DNA from: Prosthecobacter dejongeii
GTDB taxonomy: Bacteria; Verrucomicrobiota; Verrucomicrobiia; Verrucomicrobiales; Verrucomicrobiaceae
Assembly: GCF_014203045.1 (NCBI RefSeq)
Contig: NZ_JACHIF010000001.1
Span: forward strand, 868,001 to 932,000
Reading direction: 5' to 3'
DNA length: 64,000 nt
Below, in pieces: positions 27,828 through 44,744 of the stretch (position 1 is its first letter; every line of letters starts with the position of its first letter). The position numbers and the translations under genes are program-made. The notes below the pieces were generated by a model. That model was not told the DNA's origin. It was given only the letters and a program-made list of their open reading frames with translations, and made no database searches.

Positions 27828-28057
27828 CCGGCATCTACCTGCGCCAAAATTCTTTCGCGATTTCGAGACCACCAGGAGGAATCCACCTCCTGCGCCAGAG
27901 CTTCGGCGTCTTGTTGGGAAAACCGACTCTGCCGGGCGGTCCACTCCGCTTTGACGAAGGCAATAAAACTGGCCTCATCTGCATGTGGAAGTGCCTTCTC
28001 AGGGAATGAGAAAACGATGCGACCATCGGTGTGCAAAGTATCCAATGTTGCGGACAT
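27824..28057 (-). CDS. Putative antitoxin of the PIN toxin
   Basis: 77 residues, small and charged, directly upstream of the PIN gene with a four-base overlap (ATGA), the usual layout of a type II antitoxin. The protein opens MSATLDTLHTDGRIVFSFPEKALPHADEASF and ends in ILAQVDAG. I do not see a familiar DNA-binding fold with certainty; the assignment rests on size, position and coupling. Confidence 0.65.
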   Translation of the reverse strand: MSATLDTLHTDGRIVFSFPEKALPHADEASFIAFVKAEWTARQSRFSQQDAEALAQEVDSSWWSRNRERILAQVDAG

Positions 28058-28115
28058 GGTCAGTAACTTAACCTCCGCTTTTTAAAATTCAACGCATGAG
28101 TTTGATTGAGCAACC

Positions 28116-28916
28116 CTACTTTTTCGCAGGCGCTGCCGGGCCGGTGCCCTGAGGATTTTTGGTGCCAGGGCGCTCGATCTTTTTTGCGCCGGCGGGCAGG
28201 GTGGTGGGATCAAAGGGGAGGACAGGGACCTGTTTAAGTACCTTGAGCCGCAGGTCTTTGATCTGGACGGTGTTGGCATTGCCGCGATGGAGTTGGATGG
28301 CCAGCAGGCCCTCCAGGGTGCGACCTTTGGCGTCGTGATCCACCAACTCCGAGGTGGTCTGGCAATTGACCTGATGAATGAGGTGATTGCCACGGGCAAT
28401 GATGGTGTAGTCGTTCCACTGAGCGACATCCACTTTCACGGGCTCGTGCTCGTTGGTGAGCCAGCGCGTGCCTTCAGGATCAAGCAGCACGTTTTTGCCA
28501 TTGAGGCCGAAGATGCCACGGCCCTTTTCCTCATAGGTCATGCCGGTGTGCTCAAGGGCCGGATGGATATCGAGCTGATAACCCGCGATGCCCCAGGGGC
28601 CAGCCTCCGGTAGCGGACGGCTGCGATACTGGATGCCAGAGTTGTTGTCCCCAATCACGCGCATCGTGGCCTTCAATTCAAAGTCCTTCACCTGCCCCCC
28701 GCGCCAGATGAGGAAGGTGTTGTTCACCGGACTGTCCGGGCCCGTACAGATGCCTGTCACAAGACCCTCTTCTACCTTCCAGAGTTTCGGATCGCCGTCC
28801 CAGCCGCTGAGGTCCTTGCCATTGAATAGCTCGACAAAACCCTCCGCGTCTTTGTCCTGAGCGAAGCCAGGAGTGATGAGGGCGATGGAAGTAATAACAA
28901 GAAGAATAGGTTTCAT
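28116..28916 (-). CDS. DUF1080 3-keto-disaccharide hydrolase-family secreted protein
   Basis: 266 residues with signal peptide (MKPILLVITSIALITPGFA). The jelly-roll (concanavalin-like) fold is shown by FVELFNGKDLSGWDGDPKLWKVEEG, GQVKDFELKATMRV, NSGIQYRSRPLPE, GPWGIAGYQLDIHP and the later WNDYTIIARGNHLIHQVN. These proteins, very common in PVC bacteria, include 3-keto-disaccharide hydrolases that act on oxidised sugars. The substrate is not known here. It lies in a stretch with toxin-antitoxin and AT-richer genes. Confidence 0.9.
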   Translation of the reverse strand: MKPILLVITSIALITPGFAQDKDAEGFVELFNGKDLSGWDGDPKLWKVEEGLVTGICTGPDSPVNNTFLIWRGGQVKDFELKATMRVIGDNNSGIQYRSRPLPEAGPWGIAGYQLDIHPALEHTGMTYEEKGRGIFGLNGKNVLLDPEGTRWLTNEHEPVKVDVAQWNDYTIIARGNHLIHQVNCQTTSELVDHDAKGRTLEGLLAIQLHRGNANTVQIKDLRLKVLKQVPVLPFDPTTLPAGAKKIERPGTKNPQGTGPAAPAKK

Positions 28917-29043
28917 GATTTAAAGCCAGAGATAAAAAGAAGAGACTGTATATCGTGTGCTTTACGACAACGTGTTGCGATCAATTCTATGTCCAATAAC
29001 CAGCCTTGGCATAGCACGTATCAGTCACTAATATACCCACAAC

Positions 29044-29703
29044 ATGATGAAAAAGGCTTTCCTCATAGCACTTCTCTGTATTTCCTCTTTCTGTGCCGGA
29101 GCCATGTACGTCAGCAAGCATGAAAAAGGAAATCGTGAGTTCGAAGAATCACGGCATCTTGCTTCGATTGCGCGACTTCGCCAAAATATTTATGGTCCCA
29201 ACTTGTTTCATTGGAAATCTGAGTTGTCAGAAGCCAATCGAAAACTGTCAAAGTTTGATGCTTCAATCAGCAAAGGCTTTATGACCCTTTCATATCGTGG
29301 AGGGCTAGGAGCTTCTAACATCTCGCTTCGAGTGAGTGGGGATGGCTCTATCTATGTTTTAGAACCGGGCCAAGAAAATCGTTTGGTATGTCCACCAAAT
29401 CCGCAACGAGGAGCCGATTTTTTCAAACGAGTCCTGAAGAGTGGCATTCTCAATTATTCGGATGCAGTGATCGACCTAAAGGTGGATTTGCTAACACCTC
29501 TGCGGCATGCTTCGGTTTCGGACTCGCCTCAAACCATTTTTGATATCGTCATTCCTGAACTGGATGTGGATTGCCACTTTGCAGTTTATGCCCCGGAAGT
29601 TAAGTCGCAAAACTATCCGGACATTATCGAATACAAATTGGCGCTAGAAATCGAAAAAACGATATTACAACTTGTTCCGCCAGATGACCCATTTTGGAAT
29701 TAG
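29044..29703 (+). CDS. Secreted or anchored protein of unknown function
   Basis: 219 residues. An N-terminal hydrophobic segment (MMKKAFLIALLCISSFCAGA) is a signal peptide or anchor. The rest has no recognised motif; it includes RGGLGASNISLRVSGDGSIYVLEPG and FDIVIPELDVDCHFAVYAPEV. The base composition is more AT-rich than the neighbouring genes by eye, suggesting recent acquisition. The start ATG has a second ATG beside it (29044 or 29047). Confidence 0.65.
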   Translation: MMKKAFLIALLCISSFCAGAMYVSKHEKGNREFEESRHLASIARLRQNIYGPNLFHWKSELSEANRKLSKFDASISKGFMTLSYRGGLGASNISLRVSGDGSIYVLEPGQENRLVCPPNPQRGADFFKRVLKSGILNYSDAVIDLKVDLLTPLRHASVSDSPQTIFDIVIPELDVDCHFAVYAPEVKSQNYPDIIEYKLALEIEKTILQLVPPDDPFWN

Positions 29704-29754
29704 CTTGGCCACATTTTTACTTATAGTGGCCACCAACCAGCCACGGCAAGTTAA

Positions 29755-29988
29755 TCACAGGATCCCCGCAGCTTGACGGATGGCCTCAAGAACCGCCGGG
29801 CCGTAAGGTCGGTGTGGGGATCGCACCCCTTCCAAAAGGGCGGACTCCAGGGCTGGTGATTCATCGCATTCCTGACGTTCCAAAACTCGCAAAGCCGTTC
29901 TCACCACATCTGCTTCGTCGGCATAACGACCAGTATGCACCAAGTGCTGAACAAATGGGTCAAGTCCTGGGGGATGGGCGATTTCCAT
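29755..29988 (-). CDS. ParD-like ribbon-helix-helix antitoxin, orphan
   Basis: 77 residues: MEIAHPPGLDPFVQHLVHTGRYADEADVVRTALRVLERQE matches the ParD type (RHH DNA binding with LxxFVxxxVxxGRYxxxxxVVxxALRxLE). No ParE-like toxin gene is present on either side: the reading after the stop codon ends after about a dozen codons. It could be a remnant or act with a distant partner. Confidence 0.75.
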   Translation of the reverse strand: MEIAHPPGLDPFVQHLVHTGRYADEADVVRTALRVLERQECDESPALESALLEGVRSPHRPYGPAVLEAIRQAAGIL

Positions 29989-30071
29989 GCTTCAGTATTC
30001 TCTCACTCGAGGAGAATGGAATACATCAATGAATTTGCCTTTTTCATCAGCGCCAATATACAGGTCAAAGA

Positions 30072-30593
30072 ATGAAGACCCTACTGCTCTTTTTGATGCT
30101 GGCTGTGAATTGTAGCTTCGCAGTAGAACCGCTGATTGTCCTGACTCCCAAAAGCGAGGAAGCCGAGGAGTATGATTATGGCGAGCAACTCATTGAGAAG
30201 TTCAATTTGCTGTTGGAGAAAGACTCGCTTTTGAAAGAGCAGTTTGAGGAACTGGAGAGTGCACCCAAGGAACGAGCTGGTGGCAGATACGGGGGATTCA
30301 GCCAATCCTCATTTATTTTACATCGCTCTGAAGATTTTGATTTTGGCAGACAAGGAAGCTTTAGCAACTATCGCCAAACCGTCGTCATCCATTACGCATT
30401 TGATGAAGGGGGACGTAAAAGTATGATGTCCACGACCGGCGTTTTTGCCATCTTCCATCTCACTGGGAAAAAGATGTATAACTATTCTGAAAAGAAAGAG
30501 GAGTGGGAAATTTTAACCCATGAAGTGAGCGCTAAATTTAAGGAGTTTAGCAAAACCTTAAATGCCGATGAAAAACCCGGGGAGGATAAATAA
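30072..30593 (+). CDS. Secreted protein of unknown function
   Basis: 173 residues with a clear signal peptide (MKTLLLFLMLAVNCSFA). The mature part is acidic and charged, with a predicted helix (LIEKFNLLLEKDSLLKEQFEEL), then GRYGGFSQSSFILHRSEDFDFG and TVVIHYAFDEGGRKSMM. No family is recognised. It is AT-richer than its neighbours, as is the gene at 29044. Confidence 0.65.
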   Translation: MKTLLLFLMLAVNCSFAVEPLIVLTPKSEEAEEYDYGEQLIEKFNLLLEKDSLLKEQFEELESAPKERAGGRYGGFSQSSFILHRSEDFDFGRQGSFSNYRQTVVIHYAFDEGGRKSMMSTTGVFAIFHLTGKKMYNYSEKKEEWEILTHEVSAKFKEFSKTLNADEKPGEDK

Positions 30594-30661
30594 ATCTCGA
30601 TCCTTAACTCTGAATTCTGGCATTTTTCGTGGTCCGGCCCATCATCGGCTTTCACACCCAC

Positions 30662-32395
30662 ATGACCACCACCCGCAAGACCCCTGAACAACTGCGCTCC
30701 TGGCGCTGGTATGGCCGCGATGAACTCCGTTCCTTTGGGCATCGCTCGCGGGCGAAGCAGTCGGGCTGGGGCGCGGAAGACTATGTGGGCAAGCCGATCA
30801 TCGGCATCCTCAACACGTGGTCGGAACAAAACTCCTGCCACATGCACCTGAAGCTGACGGCGGATGGCGTGCGCCGGGGCATTTTGCAGGCGGGCGGGCA
30901 CCCCATGGAGATCCCGGTGCTTTCGGCAGGCGAGATGCTGACAAAACCGACGGCGATGTTTCACCGCAATCTGCTAGCCATGGAGGCCGAGGAAGTGCTG
31001 CGTGGCAATCCCCTGGATGGGGCAGTGCTGCTGGGCGGCTGTGACAAGTCCACGCCAGGCCTTTTGATGGGCGCTTTTAGCATGGACATCCCGGTCATCT
31101 ACATGCCCTGCGGGCCGATGATCAAAGGCAACTGGCGCGGTGAAACGCTGGGTTCCGGCAGCGATGTGTGGAAATACTGGGATGAAAAACGTGCGGGCAA
31201 TCTGAGCTGGGAACAGTGGTGCGAGATCGAAGACGGCATCGCCCGCAGCCCGGGCCACTGCATGACGATGGGCACGGCCTCCACCATGACGGCCCTGGCG
31301 GAAACGCTAGGCCTTGTGATCCCTGGGGCCTCCTCCGTACCAGCCGTGGATGCCGCGCATGTGCGCATGGCCGCTGCCGCAGGTCGGCAGATCGTGGAGA
31401 ATGCCTGGAATGACCTGAAGCCTTCGAAGATCGTCACGGAGCGTTCCTTTGAAAACGCCATCGCCGTGGATATGGCGCTGGGTGGCAGCACGAACGCCAT
31501 CGTTCACTTGGTGGCCATGGCAGGCCGCCTGGGCATTAAGCTGCCATTGGAGAAGTTTGACGAAATCAGCCGTCGCATCCCCCTGCTGGCCAACATGCGC
31601 CCGGCGGGCAAGTACCTGATGGATGAGTTTTACGTGGCCGGGGGCCTGCGTGCGCTGCTGAATGGCATGCGTGATCTTCTGCACACGGATGTGCTGACCA
31701 TCACTGGCAAGACCCTGGGCGAAAATGTAGAGGGCTGCGAAATCTACCAGCCCGATGTCATTCGCACGCCCGAAAACCCGATCCAACCCGATGGCGGCAC
31801 CGCCATCCTACGCGGCAATCTCTGCCCGGACGGGGCGGTGATCAAACACGCCGCTGCAACTCCCGAGCTCTGCCAGCACACAGGGCCAGCGCTGGTTTTT
31901 GATAGCTACCCGGACATGAAGGCCCAGATTGATAACTTGGACCTAGACGTGACGAAGGACACCGTGCTCATCCTGCGCAATGCCGGCCCTGTGGGTGCCC
32001 CAGGAATGCCGGAGTGGGGACAATTGCCCATCCCAAAGAAACTCATTCTTCAGGGCATTCGCGACATGGTGCGCCTGTCTGACTGCCGCATGAGCGGCAC
32101 CAGCTACGGTGCCTGTGCCTTGCACATCGCACCGGAAAGTGCCGTGGGCGGACCGCTGGCCTTGGTGAAAAATGGCGACCTCATCGAGCTGGATGTGCCT
32201 AACCGGAAGTTGCACCTGCATGTGAGTGATGAGGAACTGGCCAAACGCAAGGCCGAGTGGAAACCCGCCCCGCCACGTTACCAGCGCGGGTTTGCCAAGC
32301 TCTTTGTAAACCACGTCACGCAGGCCAATGAAGGGGCGGATTTCGACTTCCTCCAGCATCATCCTGAAGGTGTGCCTGAGCCGGAAATTTACTGA
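30662..32395 (+). CDS. Sugar-acid dehydratase, IlvD/Edd family, L-arabinonate-type
   Basis: Dehydrates a sugar acid to a 2-keto-3-deoxy acid. The ATG at 30662 (MTTTRKTPEQL) gives 577 residues; an in-frame GTG at 30629 is upstream but has no support. From this start, cysteines fall at residues 59 (QNSCHM), 127 (LGGCDKS) and 200 (PGHCMTM), the positions recalled for the [2Fe-2S] ligands of L-arabinonate dehydratase, which supports the start and the subfamily. Later motifs include DMALGGSTNAIVHL and MSGTSYGACALHIAPESAVGGPLALV. D-xylonate and related sugar acids are other possible substrates. An HpcH aldolase that could act on the product is encoded at 48037, but in a separate cluster. Confidence 0.88.
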   Translation: MTTTRKTPEQLRSWRWYGRDELRSFGHRSRAKQSGWGAEDYVGKPIIGILNTWSEQNSCHMHLKLTADGVRRGILQAGGHPMEIPVLSAGEMLTKPTAMFHRNLLAMEAEEVLRGNPLDGAVLLGGCDKSTPGLLMGAFSMDIPVIYMPCGPMIKGNWRGETLGSGSDVWKYWDEKRAGNLSWEQWCEIEDGIARSPGHCMTMGTASTMTALAETLGLVIPGASSVPAVDAAHVRMAAAAGRQIVENAWNDLKPSKIVTERSFENAIAVDMALGGSTNAIVHLVAMAGRLGIKLPLEKFDEISRRIPLLANMRPAGKYLMDEFYVAGGLRALLNGMRDLLHTDVLTITGKTLGENVEGCEIYQPDVIRTPENPIQPDGGTAILRGNLCPDGAVIKHAAATPELCQHTGPALVFDSYPDMKAQIDNLDLDVTKDTVLILRNAGPVGAPGMPEWGQLPIPKKLILQGIRDMVRLSDCRMSGTSYGACALHIAPESAVGGPLALVKNGDLIELDVPNRKLHLHVSDEELAKRKAEWKPAPPRYQRGFAKLFVNHVTQANEGADFDFLQHHPEGVPEPEIY

Positions 32396-32479
32396 GTTCC
32401 TGAAACGTCTGACATCACCCCAGCTCAGATTTCCGTTAATCCGGTTTTCAGACGGCTGCGTCTGCCTATCCTTGCCCTC

Positions 32480-33994
32480 ATGCTGAAAGCCTCCCCCGCT
32501 GCTCTCCTGCTGGTCCTCATTGGTTTGGGGGCAGGCGTCAGCGTGTTCCTTTCACAAAAGCCTGCGCCAAAGCCAGCCCCCGTCGCTGTGACTCCGTCGC
32601 GGAAAGATCCCCTGGAACTGCCCAAGGCGCAGCCTAGCGAGAGCCCGGAAGAACAGGAAGATCTACGGGCGCAGATCAAGCTTCTGGAAGGTCAGGTGGA
32701 GTACCTTCAAGGGCAGGTCGGCACGCTGCAGGAGGAAAACACGCAGCTCCTGCAAAAGCTGGGCACACTGGGCATGAAAGGCGTGCCCAAGATGGAGCCC
32801 GTGGTGGTGGATGAAGACCCACCAGACTATGTGGGCATGGGGATCGAACTGATGAAATTTCGCAAGCTCCAGGCCCTGCCCATCCCGACCACGGGCGTCA
32901 CCCAGCCGGAGGTGGAGCGCGCCATTCTGACCTGGCTGCGGCAGCAACAGCCCGATGATGAAGGCCCCCGTTTTGGATTGGCTCTCACCGCCCTGGGCTG
33001 GATTGATAAACCTGTGGACCCCCTGCCCCTACGCGCGGCCCTGTGGGCCCGGCAACTGGGTGGCTGGTATGATGAAGAAAGCGGCACGCTGCTGGTGACG
33101 GAGGAAAATCCCATCCCCGGCAAACCCGCCCCAGATCGCCCCATGGCGATCGCCTTTGGGCAGCTCCTTCGGCAATACGGCAGCACCCTGTTTCCGAAAG
33201 AGCGCACTGAACCCTTGACCACGGATGAGCGGCTGGCGCGTGAATCTCTGTTGGCGGGTGATGCAGGTTTGACACGCTTTTTGTTCAGCCTGCAGAATCC
33301 CGAGGCTGCGCCGAAAAGTGACCTGCCTGCAGAAGACCCAGACCACCCGCTCAATGAGGTGCCCATGCCGGTGTTCCTGAAAGAACTGGCACTTTTCCCC
33401 TTTCGTCCCGGGTTTGAATTCGCCCAAACGCTGCACAGCGCTGGGGAGTTCGGTCAGCTAAATGCGGCCTACTCCCGCCCACCCCGCGATTGTGCGGAGA
33501 TCATTGAAGCTGAGAGATATCTGGATAACTCCGCACTGCCATCCACGCGCCCGCAGTTTGCCAGCACTCGTGTGGCGGAGAGCACACCTTATTGGGACGA
33601 TAGCCTGGGCCGTTTTGCCATTTTCAATGCGCTGCGTACTTACAACAGCGATGAAGATGCCGGGCAAGCTGCGCGCGGGTGGCAGTCGGATCGTTTGTTA
33701 GCCTACGCAGCCCCAGATCATCCGCGCGATCATGCCGCCTGGCAGACGCAGTGGCTCACCCCGGCACAGGCGGGGGCTTTTTTCAAAGCCATGCGCAACT
33801 GCCTGCTGCAACGTTACGATGTAGAACCTACGCAGGATTCTGCCGAGGAAATGGCCCTCACCGCTGGCGGGCGCTCCATCCTGCTTCTGCGCAATCGCCA
33901 GGGGCAGGGTGTCCTGCTGGTGGATGCCGCGACGGCGGAGTTTGCCAAGGCCTTGCGAAGCACGCTGGATGCCGTATCCAAGACAGCTCCATGA
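32480..33994 (+). CDS. Anchored coiled-coil protein, apparent pseudo-peptidase (gluzincin-like)
   Basis: 504 residues. An N-terminal anchor (MLKASPAALLLVLIGLGAGV) is followed by a Pro/Lys linker and a short coiled coil (RAQIKLLEGQVEYLQGQVGT, about residues 63-95). The rest follows the pattern of an uncharacterised zinc peptidase family as I recall it: GWYDEESGTLLV, then where HELTHALQDQ is expected AIAFGQLLRQYG, then AGDAGLTRFL where EGDA is expected, then FPFRPGFEFA and YSRPPRDCAEIIEAERYL like the PPxSTEQxLHPEKY block. The HExxH ligands are absent, so it is likely inactive. The stop overlaps the acylphosphatase start by four bases (ATGA). Confidence 0.7.
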   Translation: MLKASPAALLLVLIGLGAGVSVFLSQKPAPKPAPVAVTPSRKDPLELPKAQPSESPEEQEDLRAQIKLLEGQVEYLQGQVGTLQEENTQLLQKLGTLGMKGVPKMEPVVVDEDPPDYVGMGIELMKFRKLQALPIPTTGVTQPEVERAILTWLRQQQPDDEGPRFGLALTALGWIDKPVDPLPLRAALWARQLGGWYDEESGTLLVTEENPIPGKPAPDRPMAIAFGQLLRQYGSTLFPKERTEPLTTDERLARESLLAGDAGLTRFLFSLQNPEAAPKSDLPAEDPDHPLNEVPMPVFLKELALFPFRPGFEFAQTLHSAGEFGQLNAAYSRPPRDCAEIIEAERYLDNSALPSTRPQFASTRVAESTPYWDDSLGRFAIFNALRTYNSDEDAGQAARGWQSDRLLAYAAPDHPRDHAAWQTQWLTPAQAGAFFKAMRNCLLQRYDVEPTQDSAEEMALTAGGRSILLLRNRQGQGVLLVDAATAEFAKALRSTLDAVSKTAP

Positions 33995-34266
33995 TTGCCA
34001 AGCAAGTCATCTACACCGGTCGCGTCCAGGGCGTGGGCTTTCGTTACTCTACCAAACAAATCGCGGCGGGGTATGAAGTCACAGGCACAGTCAAAAATCT
34101 GCCCGATGGTCGGGTGCAGTTGCAGGCCATGTCGCAAGATGCCGAGGAATTGGAGGCCTTTCTCGCGGCCATTGATGAGAGCAACTTGGGCTCGCTGATC
34201 AAGGAACGTGAAGTGTCCGTGATTCCCGCCCTGCTCGGCCAGCGGAGTTTCAGCATCGAGCGTTGA
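33991..34266 (+). CDS. acyP: Acylphosphatase
   Basis: 91 residues from ATG 33991, coupled to the preceding gene by a four-base overlap. The family pattern is complete: VIYTGRVQGVGFRYST (catalytic Arg in GFRY) and GTVKNLPDGRVQL (catalytic Asn in VKN), ending QRSFSIER. It hydrolyses carboxyl-phosphate bonds such as acetyl phosphate; its biological role in bacteria is unclear. Cotranscription with two pseudo-peptidase genes is curious. Confidence 0.95.
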   Translation: MIAKQVIYTGRVQGVGFRYSTKQIAAGYEVTGTVKNLPDGRVQLQAMSQDAEELEAFLAAIDESNLGSLIKEREVSVIPALLGQRSFSIER

Positions 34267-34377
34267 AGCGCCGGGAAGGGCGAGCGACAAGATGGTGCGG
34301 TCTCCAGAATTGCTACCGAAGCTGGCGGATTCCGCGCTTGCTCTCTGGCGGGGTTCTGATGCATCATCCACGTTCCT

Positions 34378-34944
34378 GTGAAATTCCTTTTCCATCTTTT
34401 GCTGCTCATCGGCCTGAGCGCCCTGACCGGTGCGGCCTGGGTGGCACACCGGCCTACCGCCATCGCGCCGGTGGAGCCCCCCAAGCCCGGCGCACGCCAG
34501 CGGGAACTGGTGGATGATCTGAAGCAGGCCGCCATCAAACGCTCTGCTGTCTTTGAGGTCAGCGAGGCGGAGCTGAATCGCCACCTGGCCAAAACTCTGA
34601 AGGGCACCCTGCCGCAGCCCGCTGGAGAATGGGCCACCTTTGAGCGCCTGGCCCTGGAACTGGAGCCTGAGATCGCCCATGCCACCCTAGTCTGGAAGGT
34701 GCGCAATCACCTCAGCACCGCCACGGTGGATTTCCGCATCGCGCGACAGGAGAAAGCTTTTCGCGTGGAGGTGGTGGGTGGCCGCTACGGTCACCTGGAA
34801 GTGCCCCACGGTCTCTTGCGTCCTCTGGCTCCTGCTTTGGAGAAACTGGCCGCCACTCTCCAGGAAGAAATTCAGGCCTTGTTCCAGATGAATCAGATCC
34901 AGCTCGCCCAGGACAAGCTCGTGCTCGACCCCCGTTTCCCGTAA
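34378..34944 (+). CDS. Signal-peptide protein, possibly lipid-binding (YpmS/LmeA-like)
   Basis: 188 residues, starting at GTG 34378 (MKFLFHLLLLIGLSALTGAAWVA), which places a signal peptide at the N-terminus. The segment VFEVSEAELNRHLAKTLKG and the long amphipathic strands (LALELEPEIAHATLVWKV, TVDFRIARQEKAFRVEVVGGR) resemble the pattern of YpmS/LmeA-type membrane-associated proteins, weakly. It lies between the acylphosphatase and the large Pro-rich protein with 111- and 13-base gaps. Confidence 0.6.
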   Translation: MKFLFHLLLLIGLSALTGAAWVAHRPTAIAPVEPPKPGARQRELVDDLKQAAIKRSAVFEVSEAELNRHLAKTLKGTLPQPAGEWATFERLALELEPEIAHATLVWKVRNHLSTATVDFRIARQEKAFRVEVVGGRYGHLEVPHGLLRPLAPALEKLAATLQEEIQALFQMNQIQLAQDKLVLDPRFP

Positions 34945-34957
34945 CCTTTTTGCCCGC

Positions 34958-37759
34958 ATGTCACGCGCTGCTGCCCTCGTCTCTTTTGTTTCTGCCTCCC
35001 TGCTCCTCAGTCTGGGTCTGCCTGTGACTGCCCAGGAAGCGGCGCCCCCCGTCCCCGCTGCACCTCCGGTGTCTCCCCCACCCGCGCCCGGCAGCGCCCC
35101 GGTTATCCCCGTGGCCCCTCCCCTACCGGGCCAGCTCCAGGCCGCGCCTGCGATGCCGCCACCCGCCCCAGGGGCCCTGCCGCCCGCAGTGGGCCAGGAA
35201 GAGGCCACCTCTCCTGCCCCCACAGGACTTTCCGGGCTCCCACCGCCGACCTTTAACAGCGCCCCCAGCGTGCCGCTGACCAAGCCAAAGGCACGATCCT
35301 CCACCAGCACCAGCGGCCAGTTCATCGTCCACGGAGATGACCTCACACTGCGCAGCGCCCTTTCCGGCAAATGCGAGGACATCGCCACCGAGCTACGCAA
35401 CCTTTTGCATGACAAGCAGCCCTGGGCTCTGCCCATCGTGGTCCTGCTGAACTCAGGGGAAACAGCCCGCAAAGCGGAAAAAACGGCCTCCACTGTCATC
35501 TCGCAGCTCACCCACGGTGGCTTTCACATCCAGGTGAATGTGAACATGCGGCCAGACCTGCGCCCCACCGACCTGCGCAAGGAGGTCATCCGTGCGCTCC
35601 TGGCTGAGCGCATCCTGCGTGACCGCAAGGAGATCACGACGCAGCGCAAGCTACTTCTACCGGACTGGCTTTTCCAAGGTGTCTTAGAAGCGCTGGACTA
35701 CCGCCAGCGTGCCCGCCCCAGCGCCCTGTTTGCTGCCATTTTCAAAAGCGGTAAAATCTTTGGCATCGAAGAAATCATCGAAGCCTCCGCTGCGGACATT
35801 GACGACGCGCTTTCCAAAACCATCTACCAGACCTCCTGCTGCGCGCTCGTCCTGGCCCTGCTAGATCAGCCTGACAGCGGCCTGCGAGTGGTCAAATTCC
35901 TCAATGCCCTGGCCAGTGACCCCCGCAGCGAGCGCGAGCTGCTAAACCAGTGGTTCCCCAACTTCGCCAGTAGCGAAGCAAGCCTGAATAAATGGTGGGC
36001 GCTGCAGCTTGCCACCCTGGCCAGTCCCGGCATGGCCGAACCCCTCAGTCCGCAGGATACCCTCATCGCCCTGGAAGAAGCCCTCACCTTCCGCTATCAG
36101 GCCAAACCGAGCGAGATCCCGACCTCATCCCGCCGGGTCGTGGCCGCCGTCAAACCAAGCGCTCCCAAAAGCCTGGAGACCGAAAAGCCTGCCACCAAAA
36201 CCGCCGAGCCCACACCTGCCGAAACCAAAGTCGAAACTGAAATCGCCACAATCAACGAGGAGCCCCAGGAAAAACGCGGTTTCATGAGCCGCCTGAATCC
36301 CTTCTCGCGCCGCAAGAGCAGCGATGACGAGATCGCCGCAGCGATTGAAGAAGCCGCGCGAGTCGAGGCTGAAAGCTCCGGTGCAATGCCCGAAGCCCCG
36401 GAACCACCTGCGGGAGCGGCAGAATCAGCCCTGCCTGAAGCCCCAGCACCCGCCCCGACCACTAGCGGCACGCGCCGCAAACCGCTGCTGGACCGCTGGT
36501 TTGACGAGGATAAACCCAAGGCAGACAAGCCCGTGGAAGAACCACCCCTGGAGGAAGCCAAGGTTACCACGCCCGCCCCCCCCAAGTCAGCGACTCCCGC
36601 CCCCACAGCCACGGTAGAAAAACCGAAGGGCGAACCTGAAGCGAAGTCCGAAGCCGAAGGGGACAAAAAACCCTCCACGCTCAACCCACTGAACTGGTTC
36701 CGGGGGGGTAAAAAGGAGAAGGAGGCCAAGCCTGAAGAGCCTTCGGAAGCCCCAGCCCCAGCTCCGGAAAAAGAAACGAAGGAGAAGAAAACAGTCCTTT
36801 CCCAAAGCGCAGATCCCCTCATCGCCCAACTTCGGAGCGGCCGCCCCATCTTCGCTCTGGCCATGCAGGAAGTGGCCGTAGAAGCCCCCGAAGAGGAGGC
36901 CCCCGCCGCAGAGAAAAAGCGTCTGTTTGGGCTATTCGGAAAAAAGAAGCCTAAAGACGACCCCGCCGAGCCAGAAGCCCCCAAAACGCAGGAGGAGGCC
37001 CCAAAGCCCACCAAAGAAACCAAGAAAGCCAAGGAAGCCCCCCCCGCTGCCGAAGCCCCAAAAGAAGAGCCTGCCAAAAAGGAGTCTCCCGAGCCGAAGG
37101 TGGATGAGGCGATGCCCGACGCAGCGGCTGAACTGGAAAGCCCCAAAACCAAACGTCAGCCCGTGCGGTTGCGCCTCTTTGGCTCTGAAAAGAAGGAAGA
37201 AAAAGCCCCTGAACCTGAGGCGGAAGCCCAGGAAGAGATGCCCGCAGACACACCCCCTGCCCCAGAGCCCAAACCCACCGCTCCCTCTAAACCCAAAGAA
37301 CCCGCCGCAGCAAAACCCAAGTCGTCCAAAGATGAAGCACTGGTGACGGCCTCCATCCCCATCGAGGACTACGCAGCCATTCTCAAACGCAAGGACTTGG
37401 GCAAGATCATGGAGCGCAATGTCAATGCCCTGGCCGCTCTGCAAAATCGCGCTTCCGTCCTCTACCGTCCCCTTGTGACGGAGTATGTGTCGGCCATGGA
37501 AGACATCCTCAAAGGCAAGACCAAGGGACTGGATGCCCGCCTGCGCGATCTTCGTGCCCGGACCCAAGAAGCCACGAAGAAAACCGATGCGGTGCGCGAC
37601 CTTTTGGACCTCCACGAAGCCAATGGCGCTCCCGCCATGTCCGGTTTGTTTGAGGATTACCTCAAGTTACCAGAAACCATTCAAAACGAGCTCCCCCAGC
37701 GCACCGATGCCATTTCCAAGTATCTGGACGCCCTGGACAAAGAATTCTCGAAGGAGTGA
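34958..37759 (+). CDS. Large secreted Pro/Ala/Lys/Glu-rich protein with a degenerate peptidase-like domain
   Basis: 933 residues. Signal peptide to about residue 25, a Pro-rich spacer (26-110), then a folded region (about 115-375) with LRKEVIRALLAERIL and LPDWLFQGVLEALDYR. These look like the HExxH and WLxEGLAEY blocks of peptidase MA-like gluzincins, but the sequence reads KEVIR and FQG, so all metal ligands are missing. From about 385 to 790 is a disordered Glu/Pro/Lys/Ala-rich region containing four short basic-aromatic units (NPFSRRK, NWFRGGKK, LFGLFGKKK, LRLFGSEKK). The C-terminus (793-933) is helical (LARLRDLRARTQEATKK-like). Unknown function. Confidence 0.7.
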   Translation: MSRAAALVSFVSASLLLSLGLPVTAQEAAPPVPAAPPVSPPPAPGSAPVIPVAPPLPGQLQAAPAMPPPAPGALPPAVGQEEATSPAPTGLSGLPPPTFNSAPSVPLTKPKARSSTSTSGQFIVHGDDLTLRSALSGKCEDIATELRNLLHDKQPWALPIVVLLNSGETARKAEKTASTVISQLTHGGFHIQVNVNMRPDLRPTDLRKEVIRALLAERILRDRKEITTQRKLLLPDWLFQGVLEALDYRQRARPSALFAAIFKSGKIFGIEEIIEASAADIDDALSKTIYQTSCCALVLALLDQPDSGLRVVKFLNALASDPRSERELLNQWFPNFASSEASLNKWWALQLATLASPGMAEPLSPQDTLIALEEALTFRYQAKPSEIPTSSRRVVAAVKPSAPKSLETEKPATKTAEPTPAETKVETEIATINEEPQEKRGFMSRLNPFSRRKSSDDEIAAAIEEAARVEAESSGAMPEAPEPPAGAAESALPEAPAPAPTTSGTRRKPLLDRWFDEDKPKADKPVEEPPLEEAKVTTPAPPKSATPAPTATVEKPKGEPEAKSEAEGDKKPSTLNPLNWFRGGKKEKEAKPEEPSEAPAPAPEKETKEKKTVLSQSADPLIAQLRSGRPIFALAMQEVAVEAPEEEAPAAEKKRLFGLFGKKKPKDDPAEPEAPKTQEEAPKPTKETKKAKEAPPAAEAPKEEPAKKESPEPKVDEAMPDAAAELESPKTKRQPVRLRLFGSEKKEEKAPEPEAEAQEEMPADTPPAPEPKPTAPSKPKEPAAAKPKSSKDEALVTASIPIEDYAAILKRKDLGKIMERNVNALAALQNRASVLYRPLVTEYVSAMEDILKGKTKGLDARLRDLRARTQEATKKTDAVRDLLDLHEANGAPAMSGLFEDYLKLPETIQNELPQRTDAISKYLDALDKEFSKE

Positions 37760-37806
37760 GGGGCGGTGGAGGGCTCTTGTCTAAAGGGCACCCTTTTGCG
37801 AACGTG

Positions 37807-38037
37807 GTCTTTCCGTGTTGCGACCACCCCCTCACCTTAGCCTCATCCCCCAATTCGGGGGAGAGGGAACGCGTTTTTGGAAACTCTGGATGAAAGAGCG
37901 AACGGAGGGCGGCTTCAGAGCAAATGTTGGCCGGTTGGTCTTCAGCAAACGAAGGCCAAAACACATCCCCCCTCTCCCCGTTTGTGGGGAGCAGGGCCCG
38001 GGGTGAGGGGCTGTGGGGTGGTCTTGGGGTGAAAGAC
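37807..38037. repeat. MITE-like element with long imperfect inverted repeats
   Basis: About 231 bases in a 640-base gap between the large protein gene and dnaK. The left end reads GTCTTTCCGTGTTGCGACCA and the reverse complement of the right end reads GTCTTTCACCCCAAGACCAC; both continue with CCCCTCACC and a GC-rich internal hairpin (CCCCCAATTCGGGGG in the left half, CCCCGTTTGTGGGG in the right half). No reading frame of note is inside. A second, partial copy is at 43522. Such elements are mobilised in trans. Confidence 0.75.
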
Positions 38038-38174
38038 AGAGGTCTCGCTTTTGGCTAATGTGCACCCCTTCTCGAACGAAGTTCCTCGTGCTGCCCCCAC
38101 ACGGTACCTCGCTGGATCAATACCCCCGTTTTTTAGCAGGCATCGGCATCACGCAGCGTTCTCGGGCATCCAAA

Positions 38175-38233
38175 GTGCCACATGCGCCACACTAAAGTGC
38201 CAAGTGCCAGCGCAGTTGTGCCATAAATGGCAC
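38175..38233. promoter_or_regulatory. Cluster of GTGCCA/TGGCAC words upstream of dnaK
   Basis: In 59 bases the word GTGCCA occurs at 38175, 38197, 38204 and 38218, and its complement TGGCAC at 38228; the last two make a palindrome (GTGCCAT AA ATGGCAC). Most copies are preceded by AA(A). The clustering of direct and inverted copies 170-225 bases before dnaK suggests binding sites for a regulator. The identity of the regulator is unknown. Confidence 0.5.
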
Positions 38234-38321
38234 TTTTAGCCCACACAGAACATCTGCCGTGCATTAGCCCAATTTCCTTAATCCAATGATAATCAACGGT
38301 TTACACTTTATCAAACCAAGC

Positions 38322-38336
38322 TGGCACGTCTCTAGC
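38322..38336 (+). promoter_or_regulatory. Possible sigma-54 promoter of dnaK
   Basis: TGGCACGTCTCTAGC matches the sigma-54 consensus TGGCACGNNNNTTGC with one mismatch and the exact GG-to-GC spacing of the -24/-12 elements. A start about 12 bases downstream would leave a leader of about 53 bases before the dnaK ATG. No good sigma-70 promoter or CIRCE element was found in this region. One match can be chance. Confidence 0.4.
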
Positions 38337-38400
38337 CAAGTAGAAACCAGTAATACCAACCTGTTTTCCCAAGTTTCAATCTTTCTCCTAACCATACATC

Positions 38401-40353
38401 ATGAGCAAAATCCTCGGCATTGACCTCGGCACCACCAACTCTTGCATGGCCGTCCTCGACGGTGGCAAGGCCACGGTGCTGGAAAACTCTGAAGGCGCAC
38501 GCACCACGCCTTCCGTCGTCGCTTTCACCAAGAGCGGCGAACGTGTCGTCGGTCAGGCTGCCAAGCGCCAGGCCGTGACGAACCCCCGCAACACCGTTTT
38601 CTCCGTGAAGCGCCTCATGGGCCGCAAGTTCGCTGAACTCACTGAGGCCGACAAGCGCATGCCTTACAAGATAGTGGCCGCCGCCAATGGCGATGCCCAC
38701 GTGCAGGTGGAAGTGGGTGGCGAAACCAAAACCTACTCCCCCCAGGAAGTCAGCGCCATGATCCTGGCCAAGCTGAAGGCTGATGCTGAAGCCAAACTCG
38801 GCGAAGCCATCACGGAAGCCGTGATCACCGTCCCTGCTTACTTCAATGACAGCCAGCGTAACGCCACCAAGGCCGCAGGCGAAATCGCCGGCCTGAACGT
38901 CCGCCGCATCATCAATGAGCCGACCGCTGCCGCCCTCGCTTACGGCCTGGACAGCAAGTCCGACGAAAAAGTCGCCGTGTATGACCTGGGCGGTGGTACC
39001 TTCGACATCTCCGTGCTGGAAATCGGCGACGGCGTCTTCGAAGTGCTGGCCACCGATGGCGACACCCACCTGGGCGGTGACGACTGGGACAACACTCTGA
39101 TCACCTGGATCGTCAACGAATTCAAAACCGACAGCGGCATTGACCTCAGCGGCCAGCCTGACGCGCTTCAGCGCATCAAGGAAGAAGCTGAAAAGGCCAA
39201 GATCGCCCTTAGCTCCAGCCAGAGCTACGATCTGAACCTGCCCTTCATCACTGCCGACGCCACTGGGCCAAAGCACATCATGAAGACCCTCACCCGCGCC
39301 AAGATGGAGCAGCTCACAGACAACCTGTTCGAGCGCACCATCAAGCCCGTGAAAGAGTGCCTGGCTGCTGCCAAGCTGGACGCCAGTAAGATCGACGAAC
39401 TCGTCCTCGTGGGCGGGATGACCCGCATGCCGAAAGTGGTGGAAACCGCCAAGAAATTGGCTGGCAAAGACCCTCACCAGGGCGTGAACCCAGACGAAGT
39501 GGTGGCCATCGGTGCTGCCATCCAGGGCGGCGTGCTGAAAGGCGACGTCAAGGACGTGCTCCTCCTCGATGTGACCCCGCTGACGCTCTCCATCGAGACC
39601 GCAGGCGGTGTGGCCACCCCGATGATCCCACGTAACACGACCATCCCGAAAAAGCACAGCCAGGTGTTCTCTACCTACGCTGACAACCAGCCGGGTGTGG
39701 AAATCGTCATCCTTCAGGGTGAGCGCCCGATGTCCCGCGACAACAAGACGCTGGGTACCTTCAAGCTCGACGGCATCCCGCCGCTGCCACGTGGCCAACC
39801 CCAGATCGAAGTCACCTTCGACATTGACGCCAACGGCATCCTTCACGTCTCCGCCAAGGAAAAAACCACGGGCAAGGAACAGCGCATCTCCATCCAGGGC
39901 AGCTCCGGCCTCAGCCAGGACGAGATCGAAAAAGCCAAACGCGATGCTGAAGAGCACGCCGAGGAAGACCTGAAGCGCAAAGAAGCCGTGGAAGTGAAGA
40001 ACAAGGCGGAAGGCCTGACCTTCGAGATCGAGAAGACGCTGAAAGAATGGGAAGGCAAAGTCCCAGCCGACCAGCTCACCCCGATCACCGACAAGGTGGC
40101 CGCGCTGAAGTCTGCTGTCGAAGCCGGTGACACCGACAAGATGAAGGCCCAGACCGAAGAACTGGAAAAACTCTTCGCCGCTGCCTACCAGGCCGCTGCC
40201 CAGGCTGGTGCCACCGGTGCCCCTGGCGGTATGCCCGACATGGGCGGCATGGCCGGAGCCGCCGACGCAGGCGCCTCTGCCTCCGAACCTAAGTCCCAGG
40301 ACAAAGGCAAGGTCGTGGACGCCGACTTCGAAGTCGTGGACAAAGATAAGTAA
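38401..40353 (+). CDS. dnaK: Hsp70 chaperone DnaK
   Basis: ATP-driven chaperone that binds exposed hydrophobic segments of client proteins. 650 residues, full length: [11 protein letters not shown]-like start ([15 protein letters not shown]), the second ATPase motif [23 protein letters not shown], a third around [13 protein letters not shown], then the peptide-binding domain and the C-terminal lid with the acidic end [10 protein letters not shown]. grpE and dnaJ are not next to it. A gene encoding a putative lipoprotein and then groES-groEL follow, giving a chaperone cluster. The antisense strand has a long open frame, which is a codon-usage shadow. Confidence 0.98.
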
Positions 40354-40370
40354 TCGCCTTCCAAAAAAGC

Positions 40371-41069
40371 ATGCGAAGCGTGATGACATCGCAACCGCAA
40401 GGTTGCCAGCACAGCGACTCCCCAAGAGGGTTGGCCCAACGCCAGCCCTCCCAGGAAAGCCCGACCGATCTCGCATCGGCACGCGCTGCTGTGGCTGTGG
40501 TAGGCATCGCGCTTCTCATTTCTTGTGGCAAAAAGGAAACTGCCCAAGCCCCGGTGCTGGCACCCACTCCTAAAGCAGCGGTGGTTTCCGATACCAAGAT
40601 CGAGGCCGAGCTGTCGCAAGCCCTCGCTGAAGATCCCAAGAAAGCCGCAGCAGAAGAAAACGAGGCACTGGCCGATGAGGCTGAGTCCATCTTGGACAAG
40701 TACCCGAATAAACCTGCCGCAGATCTCCTGAATCTGCCCGAAGTGAATGAGAGCCTGAAAGTGGCCCTCACGAAACTCGGCCAGGACAAAGGTCTGCAAA
40801 ACCAGATCAACTCCACCGTGGAGCTGGCCGCCAAGATGAAGGGGCTGGAAGGCACCCCCGGCTCTGTCGGTCTAGATCTCGACACCAAAAACTACAACCG
40901 CGACCAGAAGTCCCGCATGCTGCAGGCCGTCCTTTCGAAGGATCCCAAGCGCATTGTCAGCTTCCTGGTCGAGGAAATCGGCGAGGCTGCCCCTGAACTG
41001 AGTTACGGCGGCAAAGATCGCGCCAGCAATGGCATCGCCATCAAAGAAAACCAGCCTCCAGCGAAATAA
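40371..41069 (+). CDS. Putative lipoprotein between dnaK and groES
   Basis: Up to 232 residues. The hydrophobic run AVAVVGIALLISC is a lipobox (LISC), followed by GKKETAQAPVLAPTPKA, a typical post-lipobox spacer. The start is uncertain: ATG at 40371 gives an overlong 52-residue leader, while TTG at 40431, preceded by AGAGG, gives a leader near normal length. The rest is a charged helical region (ELSQALAEDPKKAAAEENEALADEAESI) and an unknown C-terminal domain (MLQAVLSKDPKRIVSFLVEEI). No family is recognised. Its position within the chaperone cluster suggests heat-related expression. Confidence 0.6.
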   Translation: MRSVMTSQPQGCQHSDSPRGLAQRQPSQESPTDLASARAAVAVVGIALLISCGKKETAQAPVLAPTPKAAVVSDTKIEAELSQALAEDPKKAAAEENEALADEAESILDKYPNKPAADLLNLPEVNESLKVALTKLGQDKGLQNQINSTVELAAKMKGLEGTPGSVGLDLDTKNYNRDQKSRMLQAVLSKDPKRIVSFLVEEIGEAAPELSYGGKDRASNGIAIKENQPPAK

Positions 41070-41210
41070 ATCCCGCTCCGCTCCGACTTCCTCTCCCCCC
41101 AACAATTTTCCGCCCGGCTGGCCGCCACACATCGCATGCGTGACTGCAAGCCGGGCAGATGAACAAACCAAACCAGAACAAGTAAACCGCTAGCAGAAAA
41201 TAGACCAACT

Positions 41211-41507
41211 ATGGCTACCGCAATCACCCCGCTTGGACGTCGCGTCCTCCTCAAGCGCTCCATCAGCGAAGAAAAAACCGCCGGTGGAATCTTCCTTCCA
41301 GACACCGCCAAAGAAAAGCCACAGGAAGCTGAAGTGCTCGCCCTTGGCACTGGCAAGGACGACGAAGGCAAAGACGTCAGCACACTCTTCACGGTGAAGG
41401 CTGGCGACAAGGTCCTCATCTCCAAATACGGCGGCACCGAAGTCAAAGTGAACGGCGAAGACCTCCTCATCGTCAACGAAACCGACATCCTGGGCATCAT
41501 CGCCTAA
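41211..41507 (+). CDS. groES: Co-chaperonin GroES
   Basis: 98 residues. The lid of the GroEL cage. Family motifs [33 protein letters not shown] (mobile loop) and [33 protein letters not shown] are all present. It is followed by groEL with a 74-base gap. Upstream (41070-41210) no CIRCE inverted repeat was found; a possible stem (CGCCCGGCT and AGCCGGGC, 41111-41158) is of unknown meaning. Confidence 0.98.
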
Positions 41508-41575
41508 GTCCACTGGGCGTGCTTCTGATGGCCGTCCCTGACTTACACATTCACAAACCACACCTCACACGCTAA

Positions 41576-43204
<1,629 letters not shown>

Positions 43205-43212
43205 TGGAATAA

Positions 43213-43233
43213 ATGAGTTCTTTTTGAACTCAT
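43213..43233 (+). other. Small hairpin after groEL, and contents of the 424-base gap
   Basis: ATGAGTTC and GAACTCAT form an 8-base stem with a T-rich loop just after the groEL stop. It lacks a following T-tract, so termination is doubtful. The gap 43205-43628 holds this hairpin, the strong terminator at 43362 and a partial MITE-like copy at its right end; no convincing gene was seen in it. Confidence 0.5.
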
Positions 43234-43361
43234 AAGGGGGGTGGCCTGTCTGTCATGGCAGGTCGCTCTTCAAAAACACTTTTTTGTCTTGAGAGATCTG
43301 TCCTCGCATACCGGGAGCTTGCGAAGACAGACCTTACGATAAAAAACCCAAACCCCCAACG

Positions 43362-43393
43362 ACGGGCCGGAAGGAAACTTCCGGCCCGTTTTT
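43362..43393 (+). terminator. Rho-independent terminator of the groESL transcript
   Basis: Perfect 12-base arms (ACGGGCCGGAAG at 43362-43373 and CTTCCGGCCCGT at 43378-43389) with a GAAA tetraloop, followed by a run of five T (43389-43393) that overlaps the stem end. It is about 160 bases after the groEL stop codon and strong enough to end that transcript. Confidence 0.9.
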
Positions 43394-43521
43394 GTTGGTT
43401 TGGCGAATGAGGTGTTCAGGAGAGGATTGCTCTTGGAGATCAGAGCTCCAAAGGCGGTCTCCTTTTTCTTTGAGAGGTGAAGGCTTAAGAACCTGGGCAC
43501 ACTTTGCGGACGATGTTTCGC

Positions 43522-43628
43522 GTGCTGCGACCACCCCTCACCTGGGCCTCTCCCCAGTTCCTGGGGCGAGGGAACGCGTTTTAGACGCTCAGGATTTGAT
43601 TGCTAACGAAAGCCAAACGACGTCCCCC
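43522..43628. repeat. Partial second copy of the MITE-like repeat
   Basis: The left block (43522-43585) matches the left part of the element at 37807: GCGTGCTGCGACCACCCCTC, then ACC, an internal hairpin (CCCCAGTTCCTGGGG) and GAGGGAACGCGTTTT. At 43610-43630 a short stretch CCAAACGACGTCCCCCTCAC resembles the start of the right arm, but the rest is missing, ending at the 3' end of the neighbouring gene (43629). The element is therefore truncated. Confidence 0.65.
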
Positions 43629-44744
43629 TCACACCGAGATGCGCCGATTGCGCGCGGTGATGGGCCAGCGCTGGGTGGCGGATTTCCCCTCCACGACTAC
43701 GGCTTCCCCGTGCATGGAAACGGTGGGGCAGATGTGGCGCGGGATGCCATGCAGAGCCTGGCCGATCTGGAACTCGTGCGCACGGTCGGTTTGCAGCACC
43801 AGGTGCTCCTCACTTTGCATCAGCACCTCCGCCTCAGGCAGTTCCTCGAACCGGACACGCGGATGCGGGTTTTCTGGGGCCACGGATTTGTGACCGAGGT
43901 CCAGAGTCAGGCGATTCGTGCCTGGTTTGCTGATCACCCGGGCGAGCAAAACAGCGGCAGGCAAAAAAGGTAAATCAGGGTGTTTGTCCCCATACCCAAA
44001 GTCCCACAGCACCGTGGTGCCTGGGGAAAGCGTGCGATCCAGCAAAGGTGCGTGGATGCCGAAGGTGGGGGAGCCGCCGGCGACCAATTCCCCCACGGGC
44101 ACGCCCTCCCCCTCCAGACGCTTGCGAAATTCCAACACGGGCGCATAAGCCGCCTCACAGCGGCTGCGGCGGGTCTCGAGATCTGCATCATGGATGTGCC
44201 CATCATAGGCATGAAGGCCGCGGAAAAGCAGTCTCGGGGTGTCTTTGATCACATGCACGAGGAAAGCCGCCGCCTCTCCAGGGATGATGCCAGTGCGGCC
44301 CATGCCGCAATCTAGCTCCAGGTAAACGCCTAGCGTCACACCGTGCTGCTGGGCCGCAGCCGCGAGCGTGCGCAGCGAGGCCTCGTCATCCGCGATGGCG
44401 GAAAACTTCACTTCAGGAAACTTTACGGCCAGCAGGGCCAGGCGATGGCCATTCGGCCCCACGCAAGGCATGGCCAGCAATACATCGGTACCGCCCCCGG
44501 CTGCACACATTTCCGCCTCCGCGATGGTGGCGGCTTTAAACTTTGTGATGCCCAACTTTACCTGGCGCTGGATCAGCGGCTGCAGCTTGTGGGTCTTCAC
44601 ATGCGGTCGCAGGCGTTCAGGCCCACCAGCGATCTCCAGCATGAGTTGGAGATTATACTCAATGCGCTCACGGTAGAGCAGCAGGGCAGGCGAGGCGATT
44701 TCGGCCTCATTTTCGATGTGGTACCAGGCTGGAGAGAGGATCAT
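43629..44744 (-). CDS. D-threonine aldolase/D-serine dehydratase-like PLP enzyme
   Basis: The ATG at 44744 (MILSPAWYHIENEAEI) gives 371 residues; the longer in-frame reading to 44912 runs into the divergent corA promoter and is unlikely. Fold-type III PLP enzyme: LRPHVKTHKL holds the PLP Lys, followed by barrel strands (GVYLELDCGMGRTGI, LHAYDGHIHD), and the C-terminal metal pair His-x-Cys in IPRHICPTVS, seen in eukaryotic-type D-serine dehydratase and D-threonine aldolases. The exact substrate is unknown. Its end abuts the truncated repeat. Confidence 0.85.
   Translation of the reverse strand: MILSPAWYHIENEAEIASPALLLYRERIEYNLQLMLEIAGGPERLRPHVKTHKLQPLIQRQVKLGITKFKAATIAEAEMCAAGGGTDVLLAMPCVGPNGHRLALLAVKFPEVKFSAIADDEASLRTLAAAAQQHGVTLGVYLELDCGMGRTGIIPGEAAAFLVHVIKDTPRLLFRGLHAYDGHIHDADLETRRSRCEAAYAPVLEFRKRLEGEGVPVGELVAGGSPTFGIHAPLLDRTLSPGTTVLWDFGYGDKHPDLPFLPAAVLLARVISKPGTNRLTLDLGHKSVAPENPHPRVRFEELPEAEVLMQSEEHLVLQTDRAHEFQIGQALHGIPRHICPTVSMHGEAVVVEGKSATQRWPITARNRRISV

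Follow-up and report, generated by a model that had tools for sequence, protein, structure and literature searches.

Two of the four genes at 32,480–37,759 of the window (the whole 64,000-nucleotide stretch of DNA that was analysed) appear to encode non-catalytic descendants of zinc peptidases, which belong to families without detectable relationship and have a partner of their own each, the larger of them, p4, working with the product of the preceding gene, p3; we put the probability of this reading at about 0.5. The four ORFs, p1–p2–p3–p4, lie on the same (+) strand of a 6.0 Mb genome, exactly at the positions given in the first-pass annotation of this DNA, and comprise the following features.

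32480..33994, + strand: p1, 504 residues, likely a pseudo-peptidase of the Hvo_1808-like type
33146..33160, + strand: residues 223–227 of p1, AIAFG, in place of the HExxH of the relatives L121–L124 (hhalign register, column counts)
33254..33265, + strand: residues 259–262 of p1, AGDA, in place of the EGxA of the HExxH relatives (alignment)
33991..34266, + strand: p2, acylphosphatase (Pfam PF00708, E 5.2e-18)
34378..34944, + strand: p3, 188 residues, GTG start, predicted membrane helix and likely TULIP-like domain (AlphaFold2, Foldseek, VIA)
34958..37759, + strand: p4, 933 residues, with a signal-peptide-like N-terminus, a pseudo-gluzincin domain, a low-complexity linker and a conserved C-terminal domain
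35240..36157, + strand: residues 95–400 of p4, modelled gluzincin domain (AlphaFold2)
35579..35593, + strand: residues 208–212 of p4, KEVIR, replacing HExxH (alignment)
35666..35680, + strand: residues 237–241 of p4, WLFQG, replacing WLxEG (alignment)
36158..37249, + strand: residues 401–764 of p4, linker rich in E, K, P and A (sequence)
37250..37756, + strand: residues 765–933 of p4, conserved C-terminal domain (conservation)

The p1 and p2 frames overlap by 4 bases (ATGA), as had been described before, and gaps of 111 and 13 bases separate p2 from p3 and p3 from p4, respectively. Hydrophobic N-termini were seen in p1, p3 and p4, but not in the acylphosphatase p2. The scan for terminators and promoters gave 14 vs 9.0 and 2 vs 0.9 in shuffled sequences, which is a mild excess without a clear operon signal, and no Rfam match was obtained over 28000–44000. 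Compared with the nearest relative (G033), dN/dS was 0.053 for p1, 0.051 for p2 and 0.095 for p3, while the N-domain, linker and C-domain of p4 gave 0.066, 0.091 and 0.156, as calculated by NG86, a crude method, at dS values of 0.57 to 2.43 in these pairs. All four genes and each part of p4 are under purifying selection, and at dN/dS of 0.05 to 0.16 the loss of zinc ligands in p1 and p4 is thus not a matter of random decay.

The AlphaFold2 model of residues 95–400 of p4, built from 69 sequences, reached a pLDDT of 88.8 and a pTM of 0.81. Foldseek placed M9 collagenases at the top (7esi_A, E 2.3e-5), followed by M61 and M1-type chains, and the VIA comparison with 7esi_A gave Z 15.5 and an rmsd of 5.4 over 234 residues at about 12% identity. 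The next VIA rows were M9, M30 and M1-type structures plus one TFIID chain (7edx_B, Z 9.7), and the viral structure library, where peptidase-like and unnamed rows were found, added nothing. At the sequence level, p4 had no Pfam match at E 1, and Peptidase_MA_2 (PF13485) was detected in none of the 69 p4 members at E 0.1. The profile of p4 aligned weakly with Peptidase_MA_2 relatives (hhalign 11.5%, E 0.0026; the best control, the C-domain of p4 against the profile of these relatives, gave E 0.061), and the motif columns coincided. Elsewhere, the same genome encodes a Peptidase_MA_2 protein whose motifs are intact (HEFCH and PRWLSEG; L149, on contig C8 of G000).

The alignment confirmed that KEVIR stands in p4 where HExxH is expected and that FQG (within WLFQG) stands in the place of the WLxEG motif, as the first-pass annotation had proposed. 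HExxH was not found at this site in any of 51 p4 sequences (window included), 69 aligned rows or 29 deep loci, the last being p4 loci sampled farther out in the phylum. Of the 69 rows, 44 retain the Glu of HExxH, 17 the third-ligand Glu and 5 the first His, whereas the second His is missing from all of them. Three rows combine the first His with the third-ligand Glu, and no row has more. In the p4 of the window the catalytic-type Glu is retained as E209 (it is Ala in 19 of the 69 rows) and the third-ligand position is Q240, while W237 and G241, the borders of the second motif, are invariant in all 69 rows. The 17 rows with the third-ligand Glu are distant p4 proteins from records with mixed titles (Akkermansiaceae/Akkermansia, Prosthecobacter debontii, Verrucomicrobiaceae). 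Such a patchwork of kept ligands fits a zinc site that would have decayed once catalysis was lost. By its model, p4 is a gluzincin fold without a zinc site, and the pseudo-enzyme reading is well supported for this protein.

The linker of p4 contains repeated short hydrophobic-basic motifs, such as LNWFRGGKK, RLFGLFGKKK, LNPLNWFRGGKK and KKRLFGLFGKKK. In the 38 rows of the window's family it is between 153 and 457 residues long, compared with 0 to 38 in 13 rows of other families. A pattern that was made after the motifs had been seen found 107 of them in the 38 linkers, against a mean of 10.9 and a maximum of 21 in shuffled sequences, and none in four linkers; the rows are related and the count is hence not an independent one. 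One such motif (LKRLFSRKK) is kept in several compact p4 relatives outside the window's family. These motifs could be membrane- or partner-binding.

Among the nearer genomes, p4 was present in 93 of 96 (own genome included); the 74 good-quality genomes all had it. Of 288 genomes sampled across the phylum, 89 matched the compact-p4 profile with E 1e-4 or lower. The weakest of these matches extend over a part of the model only, and the class of the window has many genomes without a match; this patchy distribution makes loss or lateral transfer possible. In the one scan reaching beyond Verrucomicrobiota, made with a single peptide pattern, 80 of 141 relatives were kept, and the record titles of all 80 carry Verrucomicrobiota names. 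In four records titled Prosthecobacter debontii (L209, L218, L225 and L229) p4 is about 29–32% identical to that of the window, compared with about 50–80% in other Prosthecobacter-titled records; wrong MAG titles may be behind this divergence.

The membrane-type protein that had been noticed between the acylphosphatase and p4 is p3. Its AlphaFold2 model (pLDDT 88.7) has one N-terminal transmembrane-like helix, after which come strands and more helices. Foldseek ranked CETP (E 7.6e-4) and YceB (E 1.4e-3) highest, and in the VIA comparison rows 1–12 (Z 6.4 to 5.3) and 13–16 (Z 4.6 to 4.2) were TULIP types, an assignment partly presumed by us, with other folds appearing from Z 4.1 down. These scores are modest (Z below 8), so the TULIP-like fold of p3 is likely, not proven. 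In three loci the p3 relatives (L304, 5415–6341; L305, 6337–7104; L306, 8843–9730) carry an N-terminal zinc ribbon ahead of the membrane helix, as identified by Pfam on L304 and L305. The gene following p4 in these three loci is argininosuccinate-lyase-like, an identity that we assume.

The gene order around p4 was surveyed in three sets of loci, where genes on the same strand were counted as neighbours up to 3.5 kb upstream of p4, or up to 6 kb in the case of p1. Of 80 named p4 loci, 65 had p3 upstream, 51 had an FmdB-type zinc ribbon gene and 50 had the two together; p2 was seen in 8 and p1 in one. Of the 29 deep loci, nine were chosen from the window's order, its class and the phylum (three each) and the other 20 from the 22 strongest remaining phylum-level matches, G127 and G304 being left out; here p3 was found in 16, FmdB in 17, both in 14, and p1 and p2 in none. 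FmdB and p3 occurred together in 13 of the 26 deep loci lying outside the window's order. The 32 relative loci (without the window) gave p3 in 23, FmdB in 15, both in 14, and p1 and p2 in three each. The sets overlap, some contigs being shared, and records ending close upstream account for five named, one deep and one relative locus. With the window included, p3 and p4 stand together in 24 of 33 p4 loci. Where p3 was not counted (15 of the 80 named, 13 of the 29 deep and nine of the 32 relative loci), the p3 match of L194 and L343 overlaps the p4 frame too far to count and that of L345 is weak; in the deep loci L306, L340, L341, L344, L347 and L351 about 2 kb separates p3 from p4. The genome of the window has its FmdB gene on a different contig, not next to p3–p4.

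Other neighbours of p4 recur less often. In the window, p4 is followed at 38401–43204 by an Hsp70 gene (dnaK), a 232-residue ORF, groES and a GroEL-like gene; Hsp70 and Cpn10 were identified by Pfam, and the last gene we take to be GroEL from its sequence. An lgt-like gene (prolipoprotein diacylglyceryl transferase) lies directly after p4 in L209, L218, L220, L223, L225, L228 and L229, its identity coming from L218 alone (Pfam LGT, E 5.8e-63), and an L,D-transpeptidase gene is located upstream on the other strand in nine p4 loci (Pfam on L081 only). The last two neighbours give p4 an envelope setting in some lineages.

The 504-residue p1 consists of a hydrophobic segment (about residues 5–25), a coiled coil (about 52–95) and a domain derived from an HExxH domain. 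The NCBIfam model of the Hvo_1808 family surface protein (NF038145) matched it with E 5.1e-14 and 52.4 bits, under the curated cut-off of 200. Among 240 genomes of the phylum, this model finds matches in 10, including the own genome; four of the 10 are outside the window's class (G251, G099, G289 and G184). The proteins from these four (L121–L124) also match NF038145 and carry HELCH, HELTH, HEFCH and HEFCH, respectively, with EGxA downstream. The p1 family aligned with them over its full length (hhalign 99.9%, E 1.4e-33, 362 columns), while the E values of p1 with ten column-shuffled profiles were all 0.15 or higher. In the alignment with the relatives, the columns in which these HExxH/EGxA proteins have H, E, H and E are occupied by A223, I224, G227 and A259 of p1; AGDA in place of EGDA and the register proposed by the first-pass annotation came out the same by hhalign. 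HExxH, alone or with EGxA, was not found at the p1 site in any of 50 p1 sequences (window included), and the absence of zinc ligands, which had been reported for both proteins, is confirmed. An unrelated HERDH is present elsewhere in one p1 relative, and in some order-level relatives (L078) LQDQH still follows the lost motif. As far as sequence comparison goes, p1 is related to HExxH proteins over its full length and lacks the zinc site, and a pseudo-enzyme is likely here as well.

The first-pass annotation had ascribed a gluzincin layout to both proteins; for p4 the predicted fold bears this out, whereas p1 can be called a gluzincin by fold only through its HExxH relatives, which gave one weak match in the PDB (3cmn, E 0.043). 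The p1 profile itself had 106 PDB matches, and the 60 listed all fall in the N-terminal coiled coil. A common origin of p1 and p4 was considered and found no support at the profile level (hhalign E 0.45, no detectable kinship), though one at the level of the fold may exist. Likewise, a second Hvo_1808-type protein was sought in the own genome, and the model matched p1 alone at E 1e-5. Of the 96 nearer genomes, 68 (own included) had p1; many genomes of the phylum match the p1 profile in the coiled coil only and were not counted. The genomes of genus g12 (Akkermansia) gave no p1 match and have p4. The p1 ORFs of L018 and L116 (both from G016), L021 and L025 are much longer N-terminally, probably from starts misplaced by the mechanical ORF rule.

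The identification of p2 as an acylphosphatase was upheld: it scored 65.6 bits against PF00708, above the cut-off of 22.5, and it was the sole acylphosphatase found in a search of its own genome. It accompanies p1 in 17 of 32 p1 loci (window included). The order p2–FmdB–p3–p4 without p1 was seen in seven distant loci (L209, L216, L218, L220, L223, L225 and L229), the record titles of which are mixed. In other families a secreted-looking protein is encoded directly upstream of p1 (L070, L071, L072, L073, L075, L077, L078 and L080), that of L075 having no Pfam match, and several loci have a folP-like gene upstream on the other strand. These eight are the strong matches (E < 1e-60) of the gene cluster upstream of p1, part of which proved to be folP read on the reverse strand; no role is assigned to the gene. 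The conserved pairings are those of p1 with the acylphosphatase and of p3 with p4, the latter often with FmdB too. The four genes had been described as a conserved run; p1 and p4 are joined in only 4 of 32 p1 loci (window included) and in one of the 80 named p4 loci, which is itself one of these four, and the run as such is therefore not conserved in relatives, the outcome that the first-pass annotation had named as speaking against it.

Among known systems, the peptidase domain of M9 collagenases (7esi and others) is the closest to p4 by fold, and the distance from the second His position (212) to the Glu position (240), 28 residues, is presumably the same as in ColG. In contrast to these enzymes, p4 has no zinc ligands and possesses its own linker and conserved C-terminal domain. 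Peptidase_MA_2 proteins share the order of motifs with p4, whereas p4 is unmatched by that family's model, has lost the ligands and has a longer spacing than intact relatives (17 in L133). The TULIP proteins (YceB 3l6i, BPI, CETP) resemble, with modest scores, the predicted fold of p3, which adds a transmembrane-like anchor. The Hvo_1808 proteins differ from p1 in that p1 falls short of the family cut-off and has no HExxH; according to PMC2945643, Hvo_1808 of Haloferax is a lipobox protein. The pseudo-metallopeptidases Tma108, Ebp1, MPP alpha, Goe and FtsHi are covered by a review (PMC11266112), in whose section 4 most pseudo-peptidases are eukaryotic, the old active site is sometimes reused for binding, and the proteins have a peptidase fold without catalysis, as p4 does, none of those treated being a bacterial envelope gluzincin with a TULIP-like partner. 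PMC7448276 describes Ruc (Rv0991c), a zinc-ribbon protein, as a chaperone that has chaperone genes as neighbours in PVC bacteria. Among the papers listed in the literature search, which was thin on subscription papers, none names such a system.

The fold of p4, the loss of ligands, selection and gene order are established by computation; from these, p4 is most likely an adaptor of peptidase fold in the periplasm, which has no catalytic function and works with p3, where we infer its location, binding and function. Hydropathy suggests that p4 is exported and that p3 is anchored in the inner membrane, and the gene order points to a contact between the two. At the membrane, p3 would hold or pass on a lipid-like or other hydrophobic ligand, while the vestigial peptidase cleft of p4 would bind, but not cut, a client peptide or protein; both the ligand and the purpose of the pair are conjectured here. 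The long linker with its hydrophobic-basic repeats could let p4 reach several partners or the membrane. Elsewhere in the phylum an FmdB-type gene often precedes the p3–p4 pair, and p1 with the acylphosphatase would form a second unit that stands beside p3–p4 only in a small Prosthecobacter-like clade. A scaffold or binding role of p1 and p4 is plausible; no pointer to an inhibitor role was found for either. A more far-reaching proposal, which we regard as tentative, is that FmdB, p3 and p4 make up an envelope unit of Verrucomicrobiota not described so far. Its peptidase fold, non-catalytic since early in the phylum, would serve as a receptor in the periplasm, coupled to a TULIP lipid carrier that is anchored in the membrane, and in the window's family the linker motif, binding membrane or partners, would have multiplied into an array.

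The main rival to the adaptor reading is a role of FmdB–p3–p4 in envelope protein quality control, with p4 as a chaperone-like receptor for unfolded or lipoprotein clients. Homologues of the window's Hsp70, Cpn10 and GroEL-like genes near p4 and the lgt-like gene after it speak for this, and Ruc is a further hint on the sole condition that it shares a family with FmdB, as we presume. Since the chaperone homologues are found near p4 in only 5 of 33 loci (window included), FmdB is not adjacent in the window and no client of p4 is known, we consider this role rather improbable. It is less probable still that p4, and perhaps p1, are enzymes of a different chemistry or with another metal site. The catalytic-type Glu kept by the p4 of the window would allow such chemistry, and its retention in 44 of the 69 rows and that of the third-ligand Glu in 17 are in favour, but no zinc-site position is invariant, the two His positions being kept in five rows and in none, and Glu209 has become Ala in 19.

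A single functional complex of all four genes with two pseudo-peptidases is comparably unlikely. Their common strand, the overlap of 4 bases and the gap of 13 bases are what such a complex would predict, as is the acylphosphatase, which is linked to both units by its position near p1 in some loci and upstream of FmdB–p3–p4 in the seven p1-less ones; against it stand the rarity of p1 and p4 in one locus, the presence of p4 in genus g12, where p1 was not detected, and the 111 bases between the acylphosphatase and p3. The same rare adjacency, together with the lack of relatedness between the p1 and p4 profiles, could also mean that p1 and p4 are ordinary proteins of the lineage which became neighbours by accident, their lost ligands having no meaning for a shared role. 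The low dN/dS values argue against this, and as p3 is kept near p4 across orders and classes, accident is hard to invoke; we give this explanation very little weight. Considering these results, we retain the reading of two pseudo-peptidases of no detectable kinship with separate partners, p4 probably working with p3.

The predicted pseudo-peptidase p4 is found in many lineages of Verrucomicrobiota, Akkermansia included, and often beside a membrane protein predicted to bind lipid; this suggests that p4 has a task other than cutting at the cell envelope. If p3 and p4 work together, they would constitute an uncharacterised envelope system of these bacteria.
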